DNA of 64,000 bases from Mytilisepta virgata (taxonomy: Eukaryota; Mollusca; Bivalvia; Mytilida; Mytilidae), in assembly GCA_028015205.1 (NCBI GenBank), contig CM051511.1, positions 1,860,001-1,924,000 on the forward strand. The letters run 5' to 3'. How positions within the stretch are numbered: the first letter of the stretch is position 1; every line of letters begins with the position of its first letter. Below, one piece after another: positions 16,143 through 63,090 of the stretch. A program made the position numbers and the translations under genes. The notes below the pieces were generated by a model, which was not told the origin of the DNA, did no database searches, and worked only from the letters and a program-made list of their open reading frames with translations.

Positions 16143-19100
16143 TTATATTCAAGAATTTTTCAATTGAATAATTAAACTATTTCAATTAGCAAAGGATACA
16201 AAGAAAGAACTTGAATGGAAACTTAATATAGAAGATTTTCAAAAGAAAAAACAGACAAAGGAAAATATAAAGTCGTTTCCGAAAGCACTAAGGTATGATA
16301 AAATACAACAAAAGTATTTGTCATGTAAACATAATCTCTTATTCTCCTTAAACAGGAAGTATAATTATTAAGGCAAACATTTATCAGTTTGAACTAAGCT
16401 GATGTTTAGTACAACAGGGTACATACCGAACACAATAGCCTATTCTTTATTTCAAATGTACTGAAATTAGGTAAATCAATGAGAAACTTGTTAAAATCAG
16501 TTTCTTAAGAATGTAGAAATATAGATTCTCCTTCGGGTACGAGTGAGTTATGGAATTTCTCCACCCGAGATAGTTAAATTTTCGATTTTCAACACGCGAG
16601 CATTTAGCGAGCGCGTTAAAATCTAAACTTTAACTATTGAGGGTGGAGAAATTCCATAACTCACAAGTAAAATGAAGGAGAATCTGTTTCTCCTTTGATT
16701 TTCGACAAAAACCTCAAGAAAATGTCGTTGCTATATACTTTGTTTACATAGACGTCATTTCGGAACTTCTCTAGTTTATCGTTCTAATAACTGTAGAAAA
16801 AAGGGTGGTAATTCCCACGTAGAAATTTAATCACCGGGAAGTGGTTAAAGATAATATGTATTTTTATCCTACCGATTAAACACGTCAGGAATAGAAGAAA
16901 ACACAATAACATACAAGCAGTCAACAGAAGTCACTGAAAAGGGATCAAAATAACCCTTACAGAATAGTGAGGATAGTCAATGTGTTCTTTTATCATTATT
17001 TATAAATGTATGTATTTCATATGGTTAATTTTTGAAGGTTTATGAAGTTATGTTTTGTAATTATTTTGCAGTTTATTTTCATTTTTATTTTTTGTCCTAA
17101 ATATTTAAAAATTGTTATTCTTTTATTTAAGGTCTTTTTATAAAAGTCAAGATAACTTGATCACCTCTTATGAGGAGTTATCCGGAACTTGCAAAAATTT
17201 TGAAGAAGAGAAGAATTTACGGAGCGCCGAATTCTATGCTAAACTCTCATTCTTCGCTAACCTTGTAAGTATAGACATTTTTGAAGTAATTATATAAAAC
17301 TTAAACAGCGTGTTCATAGACTTCTATCAAAGTCTTCACATCATGGGATGCCTACAAATGTGTCGAAGAGTTCGTTTATGCAAATATTTCGTGAGAAACC
17401 ACTACTTATTGATTGGATCCATTACTGCATTTTATGTTGGAATAACCATTAAGATTTGAATTTGTTTTAAATAAAGGTGCCTAACTGATGTCTTGATCAT
17501 GGATAGGTTCAAAGTAAATAATATCTAATATGTACATTTGTACATGTATACATTTGTACATTTGTACATGTATACATTTGTACATGTATATATAATGTTT
17601 CTTTAGAAATGGCATCATGTTAGCAGCGTTTAAAACACGCAAATATAAATGAAACTTGACAATTCAAACACCATGGAAACTGTGTTACCACAGAAACATT
17701 TCAATTTTTTGTAAAACCTTTACCATCATTATGCAATTTTCACCAATGTTCAAAAAGGTCTTATGTGGCATTTCAAAGGAAATTAGTCTTAATTTCTAAT
17801 TCTGCAGAAAGTTTCATTACATTTTTTGAAGAAAAAAAGATTTTTTTCTGTCCTTTTCTCACATTTTAACCCCTACTTTCAGATTCAAAGCTTGTTCAGT
17901 TTTTGTGTTCTTGCTTTATTATGGTAAAACCTATCCTCTTTCATTTACTACTCCATATTATTGAGTAATATATTTTTCTTTGATTATCATGCAGTGAAAC
18001 TGTATCAAAATTTTAAAAATGATTCCTTTTCTTTAATACTATGTAATTACTTAAGTATTAACATATTTCACGTCGTTTATAATGCCGAATCAACATTTGA
18101 AAGGAACCATTAAAAGTATGTGAAGAAAGTCTTTCTACAATGATGCATGCGTATAATTACATTTGGGTTGTATTTCATTCAATCTTGGATATACGATTGG
18201 CTAAAAAGAATCACTTGGTTTACATGAATAATCTTTCATTACTCAATGAAAGTCACCAGCTACGAAGCCATGACAAAACTTAAAACGTGGAGTAGGAAAT
18301 TAAATAAAAAATCCCTAGAAAGTAATTTGGATACCTCAAAGGGTTAATGTAAAATTACTTTAAGGATGATCGCTGGCCAAATAGGAAATAAATAGGTTTT
18401 GAAATAGGTGTTTTAGTTTGAGAGAAGATATGAATAGTAAACAAATAAGCAAGAAAAACATATAGGTTTATGTGCTCATTTTAGAGCTATTAGGCCTTGA
18501 AAAATTGCAGGAAATGGGTTTTCTCTGGATTTTTCCTCGTCGTTGCATTGGCAACTTCAATCTCTCAGAAATGTATGAAAAAATAAAAAAGATTTCATAA
18601 GATTTTGTCAATTATTATTTTACGGTATATATGATTGAATTATAAAAGAACAAGTAGGGGTTCATGGGGGAAAAAATTCATATTTAAGAAATGGATAAAA
18701 CCCGAGGATTTCGAAAATCTGACAAAAAGACCAAAACATGACCAGCGAGCATCCTTAAGTTGTAATTATAAGAATTGAATTCTTCGCTTTGTATTATTTA
18801 ATAAGGATCTTCATACAAAATGTGCTTTGGTCAACGCTTTTACACTGCAATGTGATTTTTTGTGATTGTATATATAACGTCAACATTAATTTCATGTTTT
18901 CCGAACATATTGTTGTTGGAGATTTGGGGTATCACTGAGATAACAACCCTGACAATAACTGTAAAAAGTACAAAATTTATTTTAATGTTTCCATGCTCAA
19001 TGGGACTCAGTCCTCAATAAACCTTGGGGAAATAACGGATGTACGTTTAAATTACACAAGCAGTCCATTCGTGCTATTAATGTACGAAAGTAAGGAATAA

Positions 19101-22100
19101 AAATGATATTAAGTTCAATAAATTTTGTTTAGAAACCATTCTTAACAAATGATTACTAAACTTTTCGTCAATGATCTCTGATAAAATAATCTTTTACAGT
19201 TTCTACTAGCTGCAAAAACAGCAGCTTCCGTCCTATCAGGGTCAATAGCAATAATATCCAGTTTAGTAGACAGTGTTGTTGATCTAGCTTCCGGTATTGT
19301 CATTTGGATGACTTCCAGATCAGTTCGGAACTGTAACTATCAAAAGTTTCCAAAAGGTATTGACTTTTTTATGGTTAATTAAGAAGTATGTAGGCGAACC
19401 TGTGTATATTCGTTGTAGATGTGACTCTTATGGGAAAATTTAAAGCCAAAGTCAAAGTCTTTTAATAGATGTTTGAAATATTACAAGCTGACAACTAATT
19501 AAAAGTGTAGACTTAGCTATGTATTTGTGTAAGGAATTCATAATATACGTATAACATGTACACTATTTACTTAATCGGCAACTTTAGAATTATCTTTATC
19601 AGGGAGGCTAATGTTCAAAACAAAGGAAATCCAAAAAAGTCTTATTCAGGGCGACCAGATTCCAGACAAGAACAACATTGCCTAAGAGAGCTGAAATATT
19701 GAATTATTCACCATTAGTGATTTTCCAAAATAATTTTTCAAAATAATTTTTGAAAATAATATTTAATTTTAAGCTGGTGCAAAAACATTACCGAATCGTG
19801 TTTAATATTTTATGTTAATTCTTTTTTTTTCAAAAATCATAAGAAAATATCCCAAAGCACATACATATCAAAACAGTTCTACGAACACTTACGTGCTGGT
19901 AGTATTTTTTAGGGCACACCAAATTGATCTTTAGTTCTTTGAATTTCGCCGCTCACATTTTTGGACTATGTACATTTTTTAAGAAAAACAATTTTTTGCC
20001 GCTTCATTTTGCAAAAATGCTGAAAATTTGCCACAAATTCTTCATTTTTCAAGAAATAAAAAATAAAAATTGTTCGCCTGATTCTAGAATTTGGTAAAAA
20101 AAAAATGAGATTTTTTCCCCATTTCTTGCAATATTTTAGTTTAAAAAATGTGTGCCGCACATAAATTTGATGTTCGCCCTATAATAAACAGTCTTCAAGT
20201 ATTAAAAATTCAGCTCGCTTGCGCCTATATTTGCCATTGAAAAATTCAAAGAACTAAAAATCAATTTGGTTTGGCCTTTGTTAAAAAAAGTATGCTGTGG
20301 CATCATCTTTGTGAGAGTTGATATATAAATTTGAGCCGGGATCCTTTATTTCTCGGTTTGCTTCTTGTCTACACCATTTCTATATGTTTATTGTAGGGAT
20401 TTTGTGTTTATTTAGGATTTGAGAGTACAGCATTTTGTTGAATTTTACAACGATTACAGATGTATAGTTTATTTCAGGTAGAAAATCTCTTGAGCCCCTG
20501 GCAATCATTATATTATCGGTAATTATGGCATTGGCTTCGCTACAGCTTGTGAATGAGTCTGTACAGAAGATAATTGGACTCGCAAATAATACGAAGCTGC
20601 CTCCAACTGTAGATTTTGTTACTATTGGTATAGCGGGAGCCACCGTAGGTACGTTTTTCCAATTCTAAAATGTTACAAGATCTTTATTTTCTCCTATATG
20701 TTAAAAGATAAGCAATTTAACACAAGTAAACCACAGGGATTTATAAACCGGATGAACAAACAAAATTCACGTTTAAAGATACCGAAAAAGAAGAAAAAAA
20801 GAAGAAGAAATAAGAATAACACAAATCCTTACAAAAATCAGGACAGAACCCAGTTGCTATGGAAGAATACGTATTTCTGATTTTAATACGCACTGTTGTA
20901 TCGTTTTACCAATTCAATCTGGTTGTAAATACAAATCGGTGAAGGTGAGCAAGTCCATGTACGAGTTATTTTTGGATTTTTAGAACTTTGCAATGCAATA
21001 AATTATGAAGAGGAAATCAACGTATCCCCGAAAAACACTTTGCCAGTGTTCAGTTATTATTATTTGTGGGATTTCTTAATCTTTATGGAAACAATTTAAA
21101 AATCTCAAGAAAATACAACTAATAATTACTTATCGTTTGTATAGATTCTATCAAATAATGAAAAATCATCTCAAGAAATACATGTACAGTCAAATCTGCT
21201 TTAAGGATGATCGCTGGTCTAATAGGAAATAAATAGGATTTGAAATAGGTGTTTTAGTATGAGAGAACAAATGAATAGTAAACAAATAAGCAAGAAAAAC
21301 ATATAGGTTCATGTGCTCATTTTAGAGCTATAAGGCCTTGGAAATTTGCAGGAAATGGGTTTTCTCTGGATTTTTCATTGTCTTTGCATTGACAACTTCA
21401 GTCTCTCAGAAAGTGTATGAAAAAATAAAAAGGATTTCTTAAAATTTTGTCAAATACCAGTTTAAGGTATATATGATTGAATTATAAAAGAAAAAGTGGG
21501 GGTTCATGGGCAAAAACATTTCATGTTTAAGAAATGGATAAAACCCGAGGATTCCGAAAATCAGACAAAAAGACCAAAACCTGACCAGCGAGCATCCTTA
21601 AAGAGCACCTGTATATAGCAAATCAATGTCTATAGTATGTATGAAGAGCACTGGAAAAAAGTTCATGTTATGTACAATGATTGTAAAATTAACTTCTATA
21701 TAAATGACACCTGTTTAAAAATGGCACTTTTCTCTGGCCTCATGGGTGCCCTTTATACCAAGGTTTTACTTTACATGTAACTATTAACATTTTTACCATA
21801 TAAATCAACGTTCCAATCTGAAATATGACACACCAGTTTTTATAGTACAGAATATGCAGTTTATAGATTTTTCATTTTTTTTCAGTTGTGAAATTAATAC
21901 TGTATCTTATATGTAGAAAAGTAGAAAGCCCAACTGTTAAAGCACTTGCTCAAGATCACAGAAATGACGTGTTCTCTAATTCATTGGCTATATTATGTGG
22001 ATATTTAGGTAAGCAGTATTAAAATTAGGATTTTTTCCCCTTATCAGAAAATTTCATCATAAAAAGTTTACATTTTTATATCATATCCTTTCTTTCTCAT

Positions 22101-31566: not shown

Positions 31567-32452
31567 CGAAAAGAGAAATAAAAAGATAGATATATTTCAT
31601 ATTATTTTAAAGATATAAAAAACGATAAATAGATTTATCTATATAAAAGAAGGAATAAAAAATAGCAAAACACAGTTACATGTATTCATGGTATTACTGA
31701 CCAAAGAAAAAAAACAGAAAAAAATATATACGGAGTTCTTATTTAGTTATTAGTATGATCATGTGAGCAATGTGATAAGCATAAGCAATCAACATAATTA
31801 TACAAGCTTCTCAAAGTCAGGTGGTGTTGAACACTCCAAGCTGACACTGATAGCATTCTGCTTTGTAAGCAATGTGATAAGCATAAGCAATCAATTACCG
31901 CCCTTTTTTCTACAGTTATTGGAACGATAAACTAGAGAAGTCCCGAAATGATGTCTATGTAAACAATAGTTGGTATCTCGGGGACAATAAACTTACCATA
32001 CTCCCCATACCCAGTATATACTAATAACCTACACAACTCGAGCACCGATGTCCCCCCCCCCTCTCCAGGAAGAATAGGGGTAGGAGTGAGGTTCGAGAGA
32101 AGCAGTATTTCTGGAAAGCGGAAATTGTGAATCCTCTGTCCACCCAAAGAATCCACTGAATTCTTTAAAATTCGATTTATCTGACATCTCCTTTGAACTC
32201 TATTTTGTAAGTTCCCGTTGAAAGTTTTGAAATATTAATAGTCATTGCATCTAGTCAGTTGTGGAACCAGATATGATCATAACAGATGAAGGGGAAGGAA
32301 TATAATGTTTTCCTTTACCTGCAGGATACCTTATACAAAACCATAAGATTAAACTGGGCAGATTTTTTTTTGATAGAAGTAATCAATGGAATTTAATTTC
32401 TTCAATGATTTTGCAATATTGCTGTTTTGGTCTTCCAAATGTTTCGGTTTTA

Positions 32453-32499
32453 ATGCTGCTGATGAGAGGTAACTCCTTGAAATGCGTCGTATACAGCAT
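32453..32499 (+). ncRNA. Hammerhead ribozyme, type I, copy 1
   Basis: Stem I ATGCTG/CAGCAT (6 bp), core CTGATGA, stem II GAGG/CCTT with loop TAACT, core GAA, stem III ATGC/GTAT with loop GTC. Predicted cleavage after ATA, between 32493 and 32494. All core bases are present. Confidence 0.9.
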
Positions 32500-32830
32500 A
32501 GTATAAATTTACTATATCTAATATCAGTATCTTTCGATTGTTATTTTGAAACTCCTGGGATGATGCCTCTGCTGGTGGACCCTAGGTCCCCGAGGGTATT
32601 CGCCAACCCAGTCGTCAGACTTGTCTGACATGATTATTCATTGATTTGTTACAGAAATTACCAGTATTTAGCAAAATTCAAAAATAATAGAAATACTAAG
32701 GGTTCATTCCTTGTATTGCACATGGTAGATCTCCTTAGCTGAAATTTGGCTTCCTATTTCGGTATTTTTGGTTGAGTACTTCTTGTTTAATATAAGTTTG
32801 GTTTTTGGTCTTCAAAATGTTTCGGTTTTA

Positions 32831-32877
32831 ATGCTGCTGATGAGAGGTAACTCCTTGAAATGCGTCGTATACAGCAT
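32831..32877 (+). ncRNA. Hammerhead ribozyme, type I, copy 2
   Basis: Identical core and stems to copy 1, offset by exactly 378 bp. Predicted cleavage between 32871 and 32872. Cleavage here and at copy 1 would free a 378-nt RNA. Confidence 0.9.
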
Positions 32878-33208
32878 AGTATAAATTTACTATATCTAAT
32901 ATCAGTATCTTTGGATTGTTATTTTGAAACTTCTGGGATGATGCCTTTGCTGGTGGACCCTAGGTCCCCGAGGGTATTCGCCAACCCAGTCGTCAGACTT
33001 GTCTGACATGATTATTCATTGATTTGTTACAGAAATTACCAGTATTTAGCAAAATTCAAAAATAATAGAAATACTAAGGGTTCATTCCTTGTATTGCACA
33101 TGGTAGATCTCCTTAGCTGAAATTTGGCTTCCTATTTCGGTATTTTTGGTTGAGTACTTCTTGTTTAATATAAGTTTGGTTTTTGGTCTTCCAAATGTTT
33201 CGGTTTTA

Positions 33209-33255
33209 ATGCTGCTGATGAGAGGTAACTCCTTGAAATGCGTCGTATACAGCAT
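33209..33255 (+). ncRNA. Hammerhead ribozyme, type I, copy 3
   Basis: Same 47 bases, again 378 bp downstream. Predicted cleavage between 33249 and 33250. The unit is cut off about 50 bp later at 33306. Confidence 0.9.
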
Positions 33256-34097
33256 AGTGTAAATTTACTATATCTAATATCAGTATCTTTGGATTGTTAT
33301 TTTGAATGAAAACGGAAGTAACCTGCAGTATTTTCAACTTTTATCTCTAAAATATTAAAGTATTGTGTAATGGTTGAAAGGATATCATGTACATTAAAGT
33401 CATACAAAACTTTAAATCATTTATGAAAACTAAAACATATACATTAATTATCACATACATCATAAAAAAATGCACATTGCGTAATACATCATATACTGCC
33501 TTTGTAATCTTATTATTATAAATGAGTGATCACCATCAAACAACGTATTACACATAATCATTATCATATATAACATGCCTACCTTAGCACTTTGTTGTCA
33601 AGAATTATAAAAAAAGGCAAACACTCTTGCATTTCTGAAAGTATTATTTAGATCAAAGGCACTTTCCTTTTTAACATATAAATGCCTGGAAAATGCACAT
33701 ATTTTGTTTTCAAATATGTAGGGCCATTTTCTTGCAATTATTTCGCTTCAAAACGACACCTAAAACCTTTCAAAATCTCTGGGGGGGGCATAGACTGGTA
33801 GGTGGTCTCTAAAAATTTGCTAATAAGAACAAACAAACGAGGTTCATAAACATTTTTCTATATATCTGAATACTGCTTTGGGATATACTTTTAAACAAAT
33901 TTGCCAAATTTACATCTTTAAGACAGTTTTTCAACATTAAGGACACTTAGAACCAAAACTTATAATGTTTTGCTGAAAGTGAGGTTATGTATCTCCTTTC
34001 TTAAGACAATAGAATGGTTTTGATTTTTAATGTCCTTTTTTTAATGTCAGATTGTGTCATCGGATCAGTCTAATACTTAAATAATGTCTTATTTCAT

Positions 34098-35639: not shown

Positions 35640-37850
35640 AAGTTTAAGGATAGCAAAAATACGTATATTCATGTCCTTAGGACCTGTTTGTTAATATTAT
35701 TATATTCTTTACCCCTCCGAAAGCTACACTCTTAATATCAAGCCAGATTAGACAGTAGAACTACTGATTCTAATTGACCTGAATACAAACTTACCTCTGT
35801 TGTGTTGGATATTGGACGTCTCCGACTTTTCAAACCAGTTGGTACTGATGAAATTGAACAAGACAACCGTTCTTTTCTTCCACTCTTTTTTGTCAAGAAA
35901 GGTTTAGATGCCATAAATCTTGGCAATATCTATCACCACAAATCGGTCAGATTAACAGTTGCGTCTTATTTCAAAGATCAGTCCGGCCCCATTATTTCTT
36001 ATATCTATACTACAGCCATTGCATCAATATTCAATCACAAACGTGCATTGCAGGACCTCAAAATCGACGATCTCAAAGCTAAGCCACCTGATTGTTCATG
36101 CAACAGTTCTCCATCCATGCCAGAAAATGGACCAAATGTGAACAAGAGCCACTAGATTCTTTTTCAGAGTAGGTTAAAGCTGTGGGATCGTTGATTAAGT
36201 CCGAATTGATAAACTTAGAAAGTCTATGAGTAAAAAAGGAACACCAGTCTTCGGCAACCCCGATGCTGCCAAGACATTGTCTGCTTTTCATGACAAATAT
36301 GCCGTTGTTCCTGCAGACAAGGCCCCTAATAACATCGTTTTTTATGCAAAAGCTACTATATTCAATGCTTGATTTATGAACTAGGGATTGCTAGTTAACT
36401 TGGCAACCCTACCTATAAAGCTACTACACTTTCAAAGGAAGAAATAACCGACAATCATAGATCGGTCTTATCGTCATTTGGTATTTTCATCAAAGATGAT
36501 GATTGTGATCTTCCTACCTTGTACTGGATATCCAAGTTACATAAGTTCCCATACAAACAACGCTTTACAGCTGGATCTGCCAAGTGTTTCCCAAACCATT
36601 GTCTCAACTTCTAACTTCTATTTTAACAGCTGTCAAAACGGGCCTCCAAAGTTATTTTGAGACAAACTATTCAAGAAGTGGTAACAACCAAATGTGGATA
36701 TTAAAGAACTCCAAAGACTTAAAGGATATTTAACGATCTCGGTCCATTTCAGTCTGTAACAGCATAAAAACATTGGATTTCCCTACCCTCTATACCACCA
36801 TTCCTCATTCACAACTGACGGAGAAGTTGAAAGATCTAATCCATCGATGCTCTCGAAATAAAAATGGCAACAACAGATACACATACCTTTTCATTGGTAG
36901 AGATAAATCATACTTTGTTAAAACCCACTCTAAATCTAACAAAAAATATACAGAGGACGAAATTGTCCTGATGATTGAATTATTGATAGACAACATATTT
37001 GTTCAATTTGGTGGACGTTTTTTCAAACAGACAATTGGCATTCCTTTACTTATATGAGGCAGACTTCCTTGGTTGGCTTCTTAAGGAAAAACAGAAGCAG
37101 TTAGCCCGTACCTTTAATTTCAGCTTCCGCTACATAGATAATGTTTTATCACTCAACAATTCACGTTTTTGGAATTTCTTACATCTCATCTATCCCAATG
37201 AGCTCGAAATTAAGGATACCACAGACACTGCCAAGTCTGCATCTTATCTTGACCTTCACCTCGAAATTGACACCAGAGGAAGGTTGAATACAAAACTTTA
37301 CCACAAACGGGATGACTTTGACTTTCCAATCGTCAACTTTCCTTTTTTTTGAGCGGCAATATTCCAGAAACGCCGGCGTATGGAGTATATTTCACAACTC
37401 ATACGTTATTCCAGAGTTTGTGACGTATACATTGACTTCCTGGACAGACCCCGGCTTCTGACAGAAAAGTTGACCAGACAGGGGTACGTTGCTCCTAAGC
37501 TGAAGTCATCCTTATTAAATTTTTATGGGCGTCATCATGACTTGGTTTACAGGTATGAAAAAAACGTTTCCCAAATGAAAATGGACCTCTTCCATTGATA
37601 TTATCCCTTCCTCATACCGGATTTGACATGGGCAGCACGGCGGTTGTCCAGCAGGAAGCAGAGACTGCTTACTCTTCCGGAGTCTACCCCAGGTTTTTTG
37701 GTGGGGTCCATGTTGTTCATATGTTTTTAGTTTTTAATTGTAGTGCATATATTGTTTTGGTCTTGTCTTTGTTCTCCGGAGTTTGTCAGTTGTTACGATT
37801 TTTCTCTCCTTCGAATATCCCTTTGGTATTTCTTGACTTGTTTACACAAA
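35640..37850 (+). pseudogene. Penelope-like retroelement, dead reverse transcriptase
   Basis: Inserted in segmental copy A. In three mixed frames it recovers ASIFNHKRALQDLKIDDL, KYAVVPADKAPNNIVF, DFPTLYTTIPHSQL, YLFIGRDKSYFVKTHS, LIDNIFVQFGGRFFKQT, RTFNFSFRYIDNVLSLNNSR, TTDTAKSASYLDLHLEID and LKSSLLNFYGRHHDLVYR, which fit the Penelope-like RT and thumb order. The catalytic YIDD is YIDN. A deletion of about 40 bp removes the residues after GIP that normally read MGTNCAP-like, and several frameshifts follow. The 3' UTR from about 37600 ends TTTCTTGACTT at 37840. It is the template-like parent of the tails at 2147, 13702 and 61536. No GIY-YIG domain was seen. Confidence 0.87.
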
Positions 37851-38469: not shown

Positions 38470-38600
38470 GAAATTGGACGAGTCTTTGCAAATTAAGACC
38501 AGTTTCGAACAAGCGAAGATTTGAACTCATGACCAAAGTGTTTATCGGCTAGTGACTAATAATAATAACGACTTATAATCTAGACAACTCGAGCACTGGG
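38470..38600 (-). mobile_element. Degenerate tRNA-type SINE head
   Basis: The minus strand reads GTGCTCGAGTTGTCTAGA (decayed A-box region) and GAGTTCAAATCTTC (decayed B box) with the same spacing and variable-arm sequence (TAGTCACTAGCCGATAAACA) as the intact SINE. Copy A keeps only the 5' end of this relic near 32025-32050. Confidence 0.6.
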
Positions 38601-39079
38601 GTCCCCTCTCCGGAAAGAGTAGGGGGTAGGAGTGAGATACGAGGTAACAGTATTTCTGGGGAGTATAATCTTTAATCCTCTGTCTACCGAAAGAAGCCAC
38701 TGTACTCTTTAAAACTTTTTTGGAAGGTTGTGTTAGACATTTATTTCATATCTCCATTGAATTCTATTTGGTAAGTTCCCTTTAAAAGTTTTGAAATATC
38801 GATATTCATTGCATCTATTCAGTTATGGAACCAGATATGTCCATAAAAGCTAAAGGGAAGGAATGCAATTCTTTGCTTGCAGGATGTCTTATACAAATCC
38901 ATGTGAAAAGACTAGTATTAAGTAATGGAATCTTATCGCGTCAGTATTTTTTTTTTCAATATTACTATTTTGAATCAAAGCTAAAGTCTCCTTCAATATC
39001 TTCAAATTTTACCTCTGAAGCATTAAATGTCAACGTGCTGTTCAAAAGATATCGAGTACATTAAATTCATACAACACTT

Positions 39080-39476
39080 TTAAGGATGATCGCTGTCTAA
39101 TAGGAAATAAATAGAATTTGAAATAGGTGTTTTAGTTTGAGAGAACATATGAATAGTAAACAAATAAGCAAGAAAAAAAATATAGGTTCATGTGCTAATT
39201 TTAGAGTTATAAGGCCTTGAAAATTTGCAGGAAATGGGTTTTCTCTGGATTTTTCATTGTCTTTGCATTGATAACTTAAGTCTTTCAAAGATGTATGAAA
39301 AAATAAAAAGGATTTCATAAAATTTGTCAAATACCATTTTAAGGTATATATTTTTGAATTATAAAAGAAAAAGTACGGGTTCATGGGCAAAAAAATCATA
39401 TTTAAGAAATGGATAAAACCCGAGGATTCCGAAAATCTGACAAAAAGACCAAAACATGACCAGCGAGCATCCTTAA
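39080..39476 (+). mobile_element. TTAA-flanked MITE, copy 4 (in segmental copy B)
   Basis: Full length, TTAA at both ends. The aligned site in copy A (near 33408) has a single TTAA in ACAAAACTTTAAATC and no insert, consistent with TTAA target duplication. Confidence 0.9.
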
Positions 39477-40331
39477 ATGTCAACGTGCTGTTTAACAGAC
39501 ATGGAGTATATTAAAGTGAAAAAATAAAACGTAAAGATGAATGATCACATTAATGGTAAAACATGTACATAATACATCATACACTGCTTTAATCTTATAT
39601 AAGACATTTTACAATTAGCAACAATGAATGATCGTTATAAAACAGTGCAATATCATATATAACATGTCTACGTAAGTATTTTGTTGTCGAGAATCTTTCT
39701 TAGTATTATTAAAAACAAACTCGTTTAAGAAGGGGTCTTTGTAAGGTATCATCCAATTTTGAAAATATCTGATTCACAACAAAAAAGCATATTTTTTTAA
39801 TGAGTACTCTGTTGCATTTCTTGAAAGTATTAACGCTTATTTAGATAAAAGGCAATTTCCTTTACAATTTAAAAATGCATGTGAAATGCACACATTAAGT
39901 TAGATTTTGGTTTGTTTCCATTATAGTGCGGTATTCCAATTAAATACAGATAAATAATTTTCAACCACTCGTTGGTATATTTTGCATGTTTTGTGTACAA
40001 AATATCTCCACATTATAAATCTCTGAATTGTCTCTTGTTATGTTAAATCTTTTAAATCTTATTTAGGATAAAACTAATTAGTTTAAAATTTTAAAAATTA
40101 AAACAATACAAAAGTGACCTGAAGGAGTCATCTCCGTGATAAGTCTAATACTTAAACAACATCTCATTTCATACTTGAAAATTAAAGTTCCAAATATCGA
40201 GAATGTGAGTCTTTCTAGAGTACAATTATTTCTGAAGAAAATGTCCTTTCAATAGATATATTAACATTCTACGACAACAGTCATATGCCTATTTTGACAA
40301 GCAGTATTTTACTACCAGTGCTCCACGCCAC

Positions 40332-53480: not shown

Positions 53481-53510
53481 TAATATTAGTATCTTTGGAT
53501 TGTTATTTTG
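53481..53510 (+). repeat. Retrozyme-type 3' tail attached to a Penelope-like relic
   Basis: TAATATTAGTATCTTTGGAT and the next ten bases match the sequence that follows the hammerhead in the 378-bp unit (33277-33306) and the minus-strand copy at 57545. No complete hammerhead is left just upstream. Confidence 0.65.
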
Positions 53511-56654: not shown

Positions 56655-57544
56655 CTGAAAGAAACATTAAAAAAATAGCCACTGTATGTGATCCACACCA
56701 GTATTGGTTGTTTTTAATATTATTCAGTTTTCCCTATCTTAGTGACTATTGAATGTCTAAACAAGTTTATTTGTTCACCTTGGCATTGGAAAAGTGGATA
56801 AATTGAAACCGGTGTGGATTGAGTACATCGCTGAAAGGCTTTAAAGGTGGAGTGTTCCCCCAAGTTGGACAACTAAAACAAGTCCTTGTTTCTGCATTTT
56901 ATTTCCAAACATTTCTTGGAGTATTAAGCTACATACAGTTCCCTTCTTTTAACGTAAACATTTATACGATGCAGTAGCAATACGATCAATATCCTAGCCT
57001 ATAGGTTTTATTTTTGTGGGCACTGGGGACAAATTCTACCGATACCATTGCAATCGAAAATATTGGAAATACAAAGATTAAATCATTTCTAGTGCTTTTA
57101 CAACTCAAATACTTTAGTTAACCTTCCACTTGTAAATTAATCATAAATCAAAAAAAAAATATTACTCTAGACCCCAATATTTTTAATATTATTATATTTT
57201 TTTCTGAAATGGATGTAAAATTGTTTGTTTGAGAACGAATATAGTAGAATAACTGATTTCTTAATGAACATTTGTGGCTTTACTAAAAATTCAAATAATG
57301 ATCACTTAATGTCTTTAAGGTCAATATGGTGCAAACTTTTGGAAGGCGACGTCATAAAAGTACAGAAATTCATGAACCACAAATAAAAAATGCACAATAT
57401 GCTTTTTTGAAAACTCAGAGGTCACTAAGCATTGGAAAAAAGTGAAAATATATTACCACTGAACGAAACAAAAGGTACAGTAACATTTTTCATGGGTGAT
57501 GTTAACTCTCTAAAAATCTGGACACAAAACATAAGTAGTTAAAA
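56655..57544. other. No feature recognised
   Basis: No upstream ectodomain exon for the receptor-like gene was found here. Confidence 0.45.
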
Positions 57545-57655
57545 ATATAAATCCAAAGATACTAATATTAGATATAGTACATTTATACTATGCTGTATAC
57601 GACGCATTTCAAGGAGTTATTTCTCATCAGCAGCATTAAAACCGAAATGTATTTT
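57545..57655 (-). mobile_element. Retrozyme/Penelope hammerhead fragment
   Basis: The reverse complement matches about 110 bp of the 378-bp unit from ACATTTCGGTTTTAATGCTG through the hammerhead to CTAATATTAGTATCTTTGGA. It is truncated at both ends. Confidence 0.8.
57590..57636 (-). ncRNA. Hammerhead ribozyme, probably impaired
   Basis: Stem I (ATGCTG/CAGCAT), core CTGATGA, core GAA and stem III match the intact copies. Stem II reads GAAA/CCTT instead of GAGG/CCTT, losing two G-C pairs, so activity is doubtful. Confidence 0.75.
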
Positions 57656-57679: not shown

Positions 57680-58048
57680 TTAAGGATGATCGCTAATCTA
57701 ATAGGAAATAAATAGGATTTGAAATAGGTGTTTTAGTTTGAGAGAACATATGAATAGTAAACAAATAAGCAAGAAAACAGTATAGGTTCATGTGCTCATT
57801 TTAGAGCTATAAGGCCTTGAAAATTTGCAGGAAATGGGTTTTCTCTGGATTTTTCATTGTCTTTGCATTGACAACTTCAGTCTCTCAAAAATGTATGAAA
57901 AAATAAAAAGGATTTCATAAAATTTTGAATTATAAAAGAAAAAGTGGGGGTTCATGGGCAAAAAATTTAATGTTTAAGAAATGGATAAAACCCGAGGATT
58001 CCGAAAATCTGACAAAAAGACCAAAACATGACCAGCGAGCATCCTTAA
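57680..58048 (+). mobile_element. TTAA-flanked MITE, copy 5
   Basis: 369 bp. About 30 bp are missing relative to the other copies, around the TCAAATACCATTTTAAGG region. The ends are intact with TTAA at both sides. Confidence 0.88.
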
Positions 58049-62154: not shown

Positions 62155-63090
62155 CTGTCGGCGAAAAAAAAAACCATATAGATGTTATTTATGACCAAAT
62201 GCTTAGTTGAACTGAATGATGAAATCCATCAAGTGTAGCACTTAATATTGTGAGATAAATTAATTCTAAAAGAAAGTGGCATCCTGTTACAGGAAATCGT
62301 ATACTTCTATTGCCAAAATTTCTGTTAAAGTGTAGTTTTAAAGTCCAATTTTTAAGATAACAGTTTTTAAAATCATTTTATAGGTCGCTTATAAAACCAT
62401 TTACATACATATATGCATATATATTTATAAATTTAGAAATATCATGCAAAGCATAGATGCTATTCAAGATGATATACATCTATAAAGAAAAACAATCTAA
62501 AATGTACCCTTTACCCTTACAATACAGCTTTTTTAGTCTTTTTCGTTGGGATCAGGCGCACGTACGTTGACTCTAAATATCGAATAGTACCCTTGCATAT
62601 TTCTTCCATTACAAAATCGGATGATATTTTTTTTTAGCCAGCACACATAGTTGAACGTGTAATGCACTAAACCAGACACACGCGATTCGCACGATACAAG
62701 AAAACGATTCGCACGTTACATGATTTCCGATCGTGCGATTTCTAAAAATTGTGTTTGTAAGATACGAACGGCATATAACGAAACCAATTAATTGATTTTT
62801 TGCCCGATATGAATAGCAGTGAAATATTTAATATTGCATCTGCTTTTAAATTAATAAAGAGGAAGCTGGTGGAATACGGTCGACATTGAATTTTTTACAC
62901 AAATACAAAATATTTATTTGTATATGCTATTTTTATAATTTATTAAACCTTAACGATAGAACAGTGAAATTATATTTTAAAATCAATAACCCTTTTCATG
63001 TTATTTTCATCCAATTAATTATAGAATATTAACAAAATGTATTTCGGTATTTTGTGGTACATTTTATTGATATGATAATAAGAATTAGTA
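62155..63090. other. No feature recognised
   Basis: No exon or repeat was recognised. Confidence 0.45.

Follow-up and report, generated by a model that had tools for sequence, protein, structure and literature searches.

Hammerhead retrozyme insertions in Mytilisepta virgata share a fixed internal 3' end and have scattered 5' ends

Results

The window analysed here, a stretch of 64,000 nucleotides of Mytilisepta virgata DNA, contains a tandem array that fits best among the animal non-LTR retrozymes, elements previously shown in a mussel, and in our judgement this array is somewhat more probably than not an insertion copied by a Penelope-like enzyme from an RNA circle. The element bears hammerhead motifs and is dispersed in the genome; its insertions have a fixed 3' end and scattered 5' ends, run through multiple laps of the unit and mostly lack target-site duplications. 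The element itself adds to the established animal retrozymes and the anatomy of its insertions is the new part: with 3' ends fixed at an internal site next to the ribozyme and 5' ends scattered after several laps, this anatomy supplies direct genomic evidence on how retrozymes re-enter the genome, and it is valuable because it makes the movement of animal retrozymes directly testable. A search by titles and abstract openings, in a literature without most subscription journals, found no report of fixed 3' ends of retrozymes.

A tandem array with three hammerhead motifs

Tandem Repeats Finder places the array at 32425-33306 (period 378, 2.3 copies, match 98%). Units 1 and 2 are 98.9% identical and unit 3 ends at unit position 126. 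The features of the array are:

32425..33306, + strand: retrozyme insertion of family A, the 378-bp unit 2.33 times head to tail
32453..32499, + strand: hammerhead 1 (type I), cut predicted at 32493/32494
32831..32877, + strand: hammerhead 2 (type I), cut predicted at 32871/32872
33209..33255, + strand: hammerhead 3 (type I), cut predicted at 33249/33250
33250..33303, + strand: last copy of the tail (unit 70-123), with predicted hairpins followed by ...GGATTGTTATTTT

The last three bases of the array, GAA at 33304-33306, may belong to the element or to the flank.

A hammerhead descriptor (CUGANGA core, GAA, helices I, II and III of at least 4, 3 and 3 bp, NUH site) matched the window three times on the + strand, with H17 at 32493, 32871 and 33249, and never on the - strand, while 60 dinucleotide-shuffled windows gave no match. 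All three motifs consist of stem I ATGCTG/CAGCAT, core CTGATGA, stem II G-AGG-TAACT-CCT-T, GAA and stem III ATGC-GTC-GTAT, with the cut predicted 3' of A. We also weighed a cut 3' of the GUC at 32486-32488 and discarded it, as stem I would not adjoin it; A 32493 makes the three helices continuous, and this geometry points to 32493/32494, the site that an earlier note on this DNA had predicted. None of the 16 stop-to-stop frames of at least 110 aa in the window overlaps 32425-33306, and coding sequence for a reverse transcriptase or a GIY-YIG endonuclease is absent from the array, which has no frame of that length. Descriptor, Tandem Repeats Finder and frame scan together confirm what had been read from the letters, namely three complete hammerheads at 378-bp spacing in a non-coding tandem array.

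The check by Rfam type I hammerhead models, which the earlier note had proposed, went the other way. The Rfam 15 hammerhead models gave no match in the whole window at gathering scores, and relaxing the threshold to E 10 brought none in the array or in four further loci (L064, L031, L057 and L054). Given that these models match none of the motifs, the hammerhead call rests on the descriptor and on the covariation between two families described below. The minimum free-energy fold favours a non-hammerhead structure, and the isolated motif folds at -12.6 kcal/mol into an alternative as against -7.1 kcal/mol for the hammerhead, tertiary contacts not being counted. The predicted circular fold of the unit (-86.1 kcal/mol, z -1.55 against 100 shuffles) is not strikingly self-paired. 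The unit has a GC content of 36.5%, below the retrozyme criterion of about 45-50%, and at 378 bp it lies within the retrozyme size range of about 150-450 bp; where retrozymes run from dimers to long arrays, the copies here span 0.08 to 8.6 laps besides long blocks on C9.

Dispersed copies fall into two families

We compared the unit with its own genome (1.03 Gb, 109 contigs), scoring 40 of 279 candidate loci, and found at least 135 matches dispersed over many contigs. We took 35 stretches around matches and a further two from a long array. When the 35 stretches and the window were scanned with a relaxed hammerhead descriptor, 96 matches appeared, all but one within copies of family A, the family of the array. 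The exception, in L064, revealed family B, with a unit of about 375 bp that has its own hammerhead, a body 68% identical to that of family A over 203 aligned positions, and a tail ending in ...GTGATACATTTT. Three further copies lie in the window:

57539..57647, - strand: family A solo copy, 5'-truncated (unit 18-126), hammerhead stem II damaged with 2 pairs broken
53481..53510, + strand: family A tail-only copy (unit 95-124)
63031..63068, + strand: family B tail-only copy (B39-75)

These three copies go beyond the earlier note, as does the fixed 3' end on which the proposed mechanism hinges.

An alignment of A and B hammerheads, comprising six cores of which four are distinct (two A, two B), has 96% of its cells paired, as opposed to 20-46% when the partners are slid by 1-3 columns. 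Five of the 14 pairs are changed on both sides (three in helix I, two in helix II); among 500 column shuffles 25 reach five doubly changed pairs and none reaches the covariation score. Because just two families are compared, this covariation is evidence from one split in descent. Furthermore, an identical hammerhead motif occurs in 75 of 160 spans, duplicates and C9 blocks counted. The lack of an Rfam match and the greater stability of the alternative fold would suit chance motifs in an ordinary repeat; set against the empty shuffles, the paired A/B changes and the recurrence of one identical motif, we find such an origin scarcely credible. Among distinct variants there are 20 changes at 10 core-coded sites and 77 at 37 other hammerhead sites. 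Core and other sites thus vary alike, as for drifting copies, which lends no support to function in individual copies.

The earlier note had concluded recent activity from the near-identity of the first two units. Near-identity within one insertion is no proof of recency, because the units are identical at birth; the activity itself is upheld on other grounds, since the three full units of L031 show no difference from the consensus and the four full units of L032 one difference in all, indicating that family A was active recently. Likewise supported is the view of the element as retrozyme-like, in that it is non-coding, dispersed and hammerhead-bearing. About 165 bases downstream of the L031 insertion, L031:1260-1334 (- strand) gives a Twister-P1 match of 38.3 bits (gathering 67.2; E 3.5e-05).

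Most insertions end at one site, and their 5' ends are scattered

We counted 34 family A insertions as independent, including three from the window. Left out were apparent duplicates (L053 of L050; L058 of L057, judged by flanks; L065 and the extra L048 copies), an edge piece in L038 that equals the copy in L064, all pieces of family B and the inner parts of the C9 blocks. In L048 and L065 (C1:18485000-18500000) retrozyme copies with identical ends are repeated within a larger local duplication.

The 3' end falls at unit position 122-128 in 31 of the 34 insertions, that is 53-59 nt past the predicted cut, and the three that deviate end at 108 (L046), 161 (second piece of L047) and 302 (L062). 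By the Rayleigh test the 3' ends cluster (R 0.94, p ~1e-13), unlike the 5' ends, which are scattered round the unit (R 0.17, p 0.37). Insertions are 30 to 3,252 bases long, or 0.08 to 8.6 laps, and 31 of the 34 exceed one lap; these lengths are biased upward because the loci were chosen by a full-unit query, and we see no reason for such a bias in the end positions. In a junction table of 31 rows picked for ends at 120-130 (one a duplicate; four pieces skipped), GTTATTT is intact in 27 rows and 1-2 bases off in the other four, and the flanks beyond it are unrelated. Inspected by eye, these rows have neither poly(A) nor a short repeat as a regular feature of the 3' junction: the flank starts with 4-6 A in three rows and with 7 T in one. 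The first three flank bases are 82% AT, a weak enrichment over the 67% background. Target-site duplications, which by the retrozyme criterion should if present be longer than 4 bp, are mostly absent: two of the 21 insertions tested exceed the control 99th percentile of 10, with a flank repeat of 36 bp in L043 and one of 11 bp, a simple-repeat word, in L045.

In family B two clear 3' ends lie at B72-75 (the minus-strand array of L064 and the window copy at 63031-63068), about 39-42 nt past the predicted cut; a third, of the plus-strand array of L064, lies at B72-75, or at B84 if read with a 5-base insert. The two arrays of L064 stand head to head with their 3' ends outward (L064:2868-3963; C7:51074367-51075462), a pair that would fit an enzyme cutting and extending both strands. 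The plus-strand array begins at most 2 bases from the predicted cut.

The distribution of ends bears on how the unit spreads. Satellite growth does occur, since two long blocks of the family A unit exist on C9, of at least 23.6 kb (C9:20002261-20025900; L066, L054, L055) and at least 9.4 kb (C9:20046590-20055997; L056, L067). Both blocks run past the sequence covered, 20025901-20044999 lies outside it, and C9:20045000-20046589 contains no match to the unit; we count them as two blocks. Many of their hammerheads carry a substitution in stem I. These blocks favour a DNA satellite spreading by unequal crossing-over or by extrachromosomal DNA circles, with the ribozyme a passive relic. DNA circles, however, would break randomly at both ends, yet 31 of the 34 insertions have one 3' end, and the three that are shorter than one unit all have the fixed 3' end (unit 122-128); we therefore regard a satellite origin of the dispersed copies as very improbable. 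A Helitron was rejected by reasoning from the features of such elements, which are a 5' end that is recognised first and a 3' end in CTRR.

LINEs and SINEs generally show a fixed 3' end and a truncated 5' end, and both features are seen in these insertions. They would be accounted for if the same retrozyme were moved by a LINE-type reverse transcriptase (R2- or RTE/CR1-like) that recognises the tail on a linear RNA with a defined 3' end. Three observations make this unlikely, if still worth weighing: the 3' junctions, judged by eye, are without the consistent poly(A) or short repeat, and most insertions lack a target-site duplication; the fixed 3' end is internal to the unit, at a position that is not a terminus of cleaved linear monomers; and insertions continue through the cut site, up to 8.6 laps. 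The accessible part of the mussel retrozyme study leaves LINEs and Penelope-like elements both open as mobilising enzyme, and it and a second account, again as far as accessible, favour the latter (PMC7229834, PMC7761336).

Laps within one insertion resemble each other

Following non-consensus variants that occur in more than one insertion across the laps of all 34 insertions gave 52 uniform and 92 mixed cells, a uniform fraction of 0.36 compared with a mean of 0.02 when units were dealt out randomly. The laps of one insertion are thus far more alike than chance, which fits one copied molecule. In the 16 youngest insertions (mean divergence below 1.6%) 25 cells were uniform and 15 mixed, and in the 18 older ones 27 and 77. 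Counting sharing among the 16 young insertions alone, 22 of 29 cells were uniform and seven mixed, with 28 further private partial variants. In L041, L042 and L046 the variants 95G, 158T, 180T and 245A are uniform in every covering lap.

Mixing from lap to lap is real, chiefly at unit positions 101 and 111, and rises in old copies. It is partly due to ageing, and template switching, mixed templates or gene conversion may contribute. Position 111 (32535, 32913 and 33291 in the array) carries G in 31 of 31 3'-terminal copies and C or T in 11 of 59 internal laps (Fisher p 0.014, one test among several sites examined).

The mixing in 92 of the 144 cells would also follow from a mixed parent array, if the templates were uncut linear multimers transcribed from existing arrays and circles were irrelevant to insertion. 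Such multimers would give identical ends and, according to the accessible part of the anole study, ribozyme mutants were inserted by the anole enzyme in vitro with insertion unaltered, unprocessed RNA being thought the dominant substrate (PMC11167929). On the other side stand the uniformity of 25 of 40 cells in the youngest insertions and the partial differences there, which are mostly private (28 compared with seven shared). Lap uniformity leaves linear multimers standing, because a uniform parent array would look alike; we take them to be an unlikely template that nonetheless carries some weight. Read under target-primed reverse transcription, the end pattern suggests that the template was circular or multimeric RNA, and of the two we favour the circle.

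Comparison with published systems and a proposed mechanism

The comparisons that follow draw on the accessible parts of the papers cited. Animal retrozymes are repeats with hammerheads from which RNA circles arise in coral, mussel and axolotl, and their circularisation is most likely by tRNA ligase (RtcB in vitro) and not by self-ligation of the ribozyme (PMC7229834). The element described here is closest in description to the non-LTR retrozymes of Mytilus galloprovincialis, which have a type I hammerhead in each unit of about 350-390 bp, low GC, dispersed tandem copies and two related ribozyme families (Cervera and de la Pena 2020, PMC7229834). The likeness is one of description and not of sequence, and RNA circles were demonstrated there, whereas genomic copies alone are considered here; the accessible part of the mussel study does not describe insertion ends of the kind reported here. 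The satellite hammerhead repeats of newts and salamanders are also tandem (about 330-350 bp) with a type I hammerhead, but have a very short helix III and are better cleaved as dimers, while helix III of family A has 4 bp by our reading (PMC7229834). Plant LTR retrozymes (PMC4918200) are likewise hammerhead-bearing and non-autonomous, with circular RNA, but have type III hammerheads, LTRs, a primer binding site and 4-bp target-site duplications, in contrast to the type I motifs found here (features according to PMC7761336 and PMC7229834).

The pattern of ends finds its closest match in Poseidon of Anolis, which has a type I hammerhead, is tandem and has copies that end downstream of the hammerhead (Frangieh et al. 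2024, PMC11167929). The anole Penelope-like protein begins to reverse-transcribe at an internal site downstream of the hammerhead, and the genomic copies end at this site; it has a preference for AT-rich DNA, of which it cuts and extends both strands (PMC11167929). Unlike the retrozyme, which lacks a long open frame, Poseidon encodes a reverse transcriptase and a GIY-YIG endonuclease, and its reverse transcription starts about 85-92 nt beyond the cut (subtracted from the published coordinates) as compared with copies that end 53-59 nt in family A and about 39-42 nt in family B (PMC11167929).

Given that the retrozyme copies end at one internal site, as the anole copies do, and that here laps with scattered stops lie upstream of it, we infer that the array arose through rolling-circle target-primed reverse transcription, carried out by a Penelope-like enzyme. 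By analogy with the work on mussel, coral and axolotl, copies would be transcribed, the hammerheads would release 378-nt monomers from the RNA and these monomers would be circularised by a host ligase. A Penelope-like reverse transcriptase, its identity being argued from the anole system, may then bind the hammerhead and the adjoining hairpin tail and start copying at one internal site (unit ~123), primed from a nicked chromosomal end; the end of the tail, ...GGATTGTTATTTT in 33250..33303, would be this start site. By lapping the circle and dropping off at random, the enzyme would leave insertions of tandem laps in which the 3' end is fixed and the 5' end random. A wider reading, which we advance tentatively and hold a little less probable than not, is that animal retrozymes in general are passengers of Penelope-like elements, with ribozyme and hairpin tail as binding and start site and with rolling-circle copying, sometimes from both cut strands, as the head-to-head family B pair of L064 would suggest. 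If so, the genome keeps a record of one start, random stops and many laps.

Setting of the array in the window

The region of the insertion has a paralogue in the window:

38571..39694, + strand: paralogue of the insertion region, diverged (~67-75% identity), without the array

The two full units of the array differ from the family consensus at 1 and 3 positions per 378. Because the array is this close to consensus and the paralogue is diverged and without it, the insertion post-dates the local segmental duplication, as had been proposed before and is now well supported. The divergence of the paralogue is too high to place the 5' junction of the array to the base.

A frame at 36990-37352 (120 aa), which we took to resemble a reverse transcriptase, was checked as a possible enzyme partner. 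It had no Pfam and no PDB match, and its 2,762 database relatives bore no telling name among the 120 matches listed.

A different interspersed repeat of about 400 bp has five copies in the window, at 165-570, 18349-18758, 21189-21601, 39079-39477 (inside the paralogue) and 57680-58048. By eye its ends are inverted and TTAAGGATG-like, and it is perhaps a MITE.
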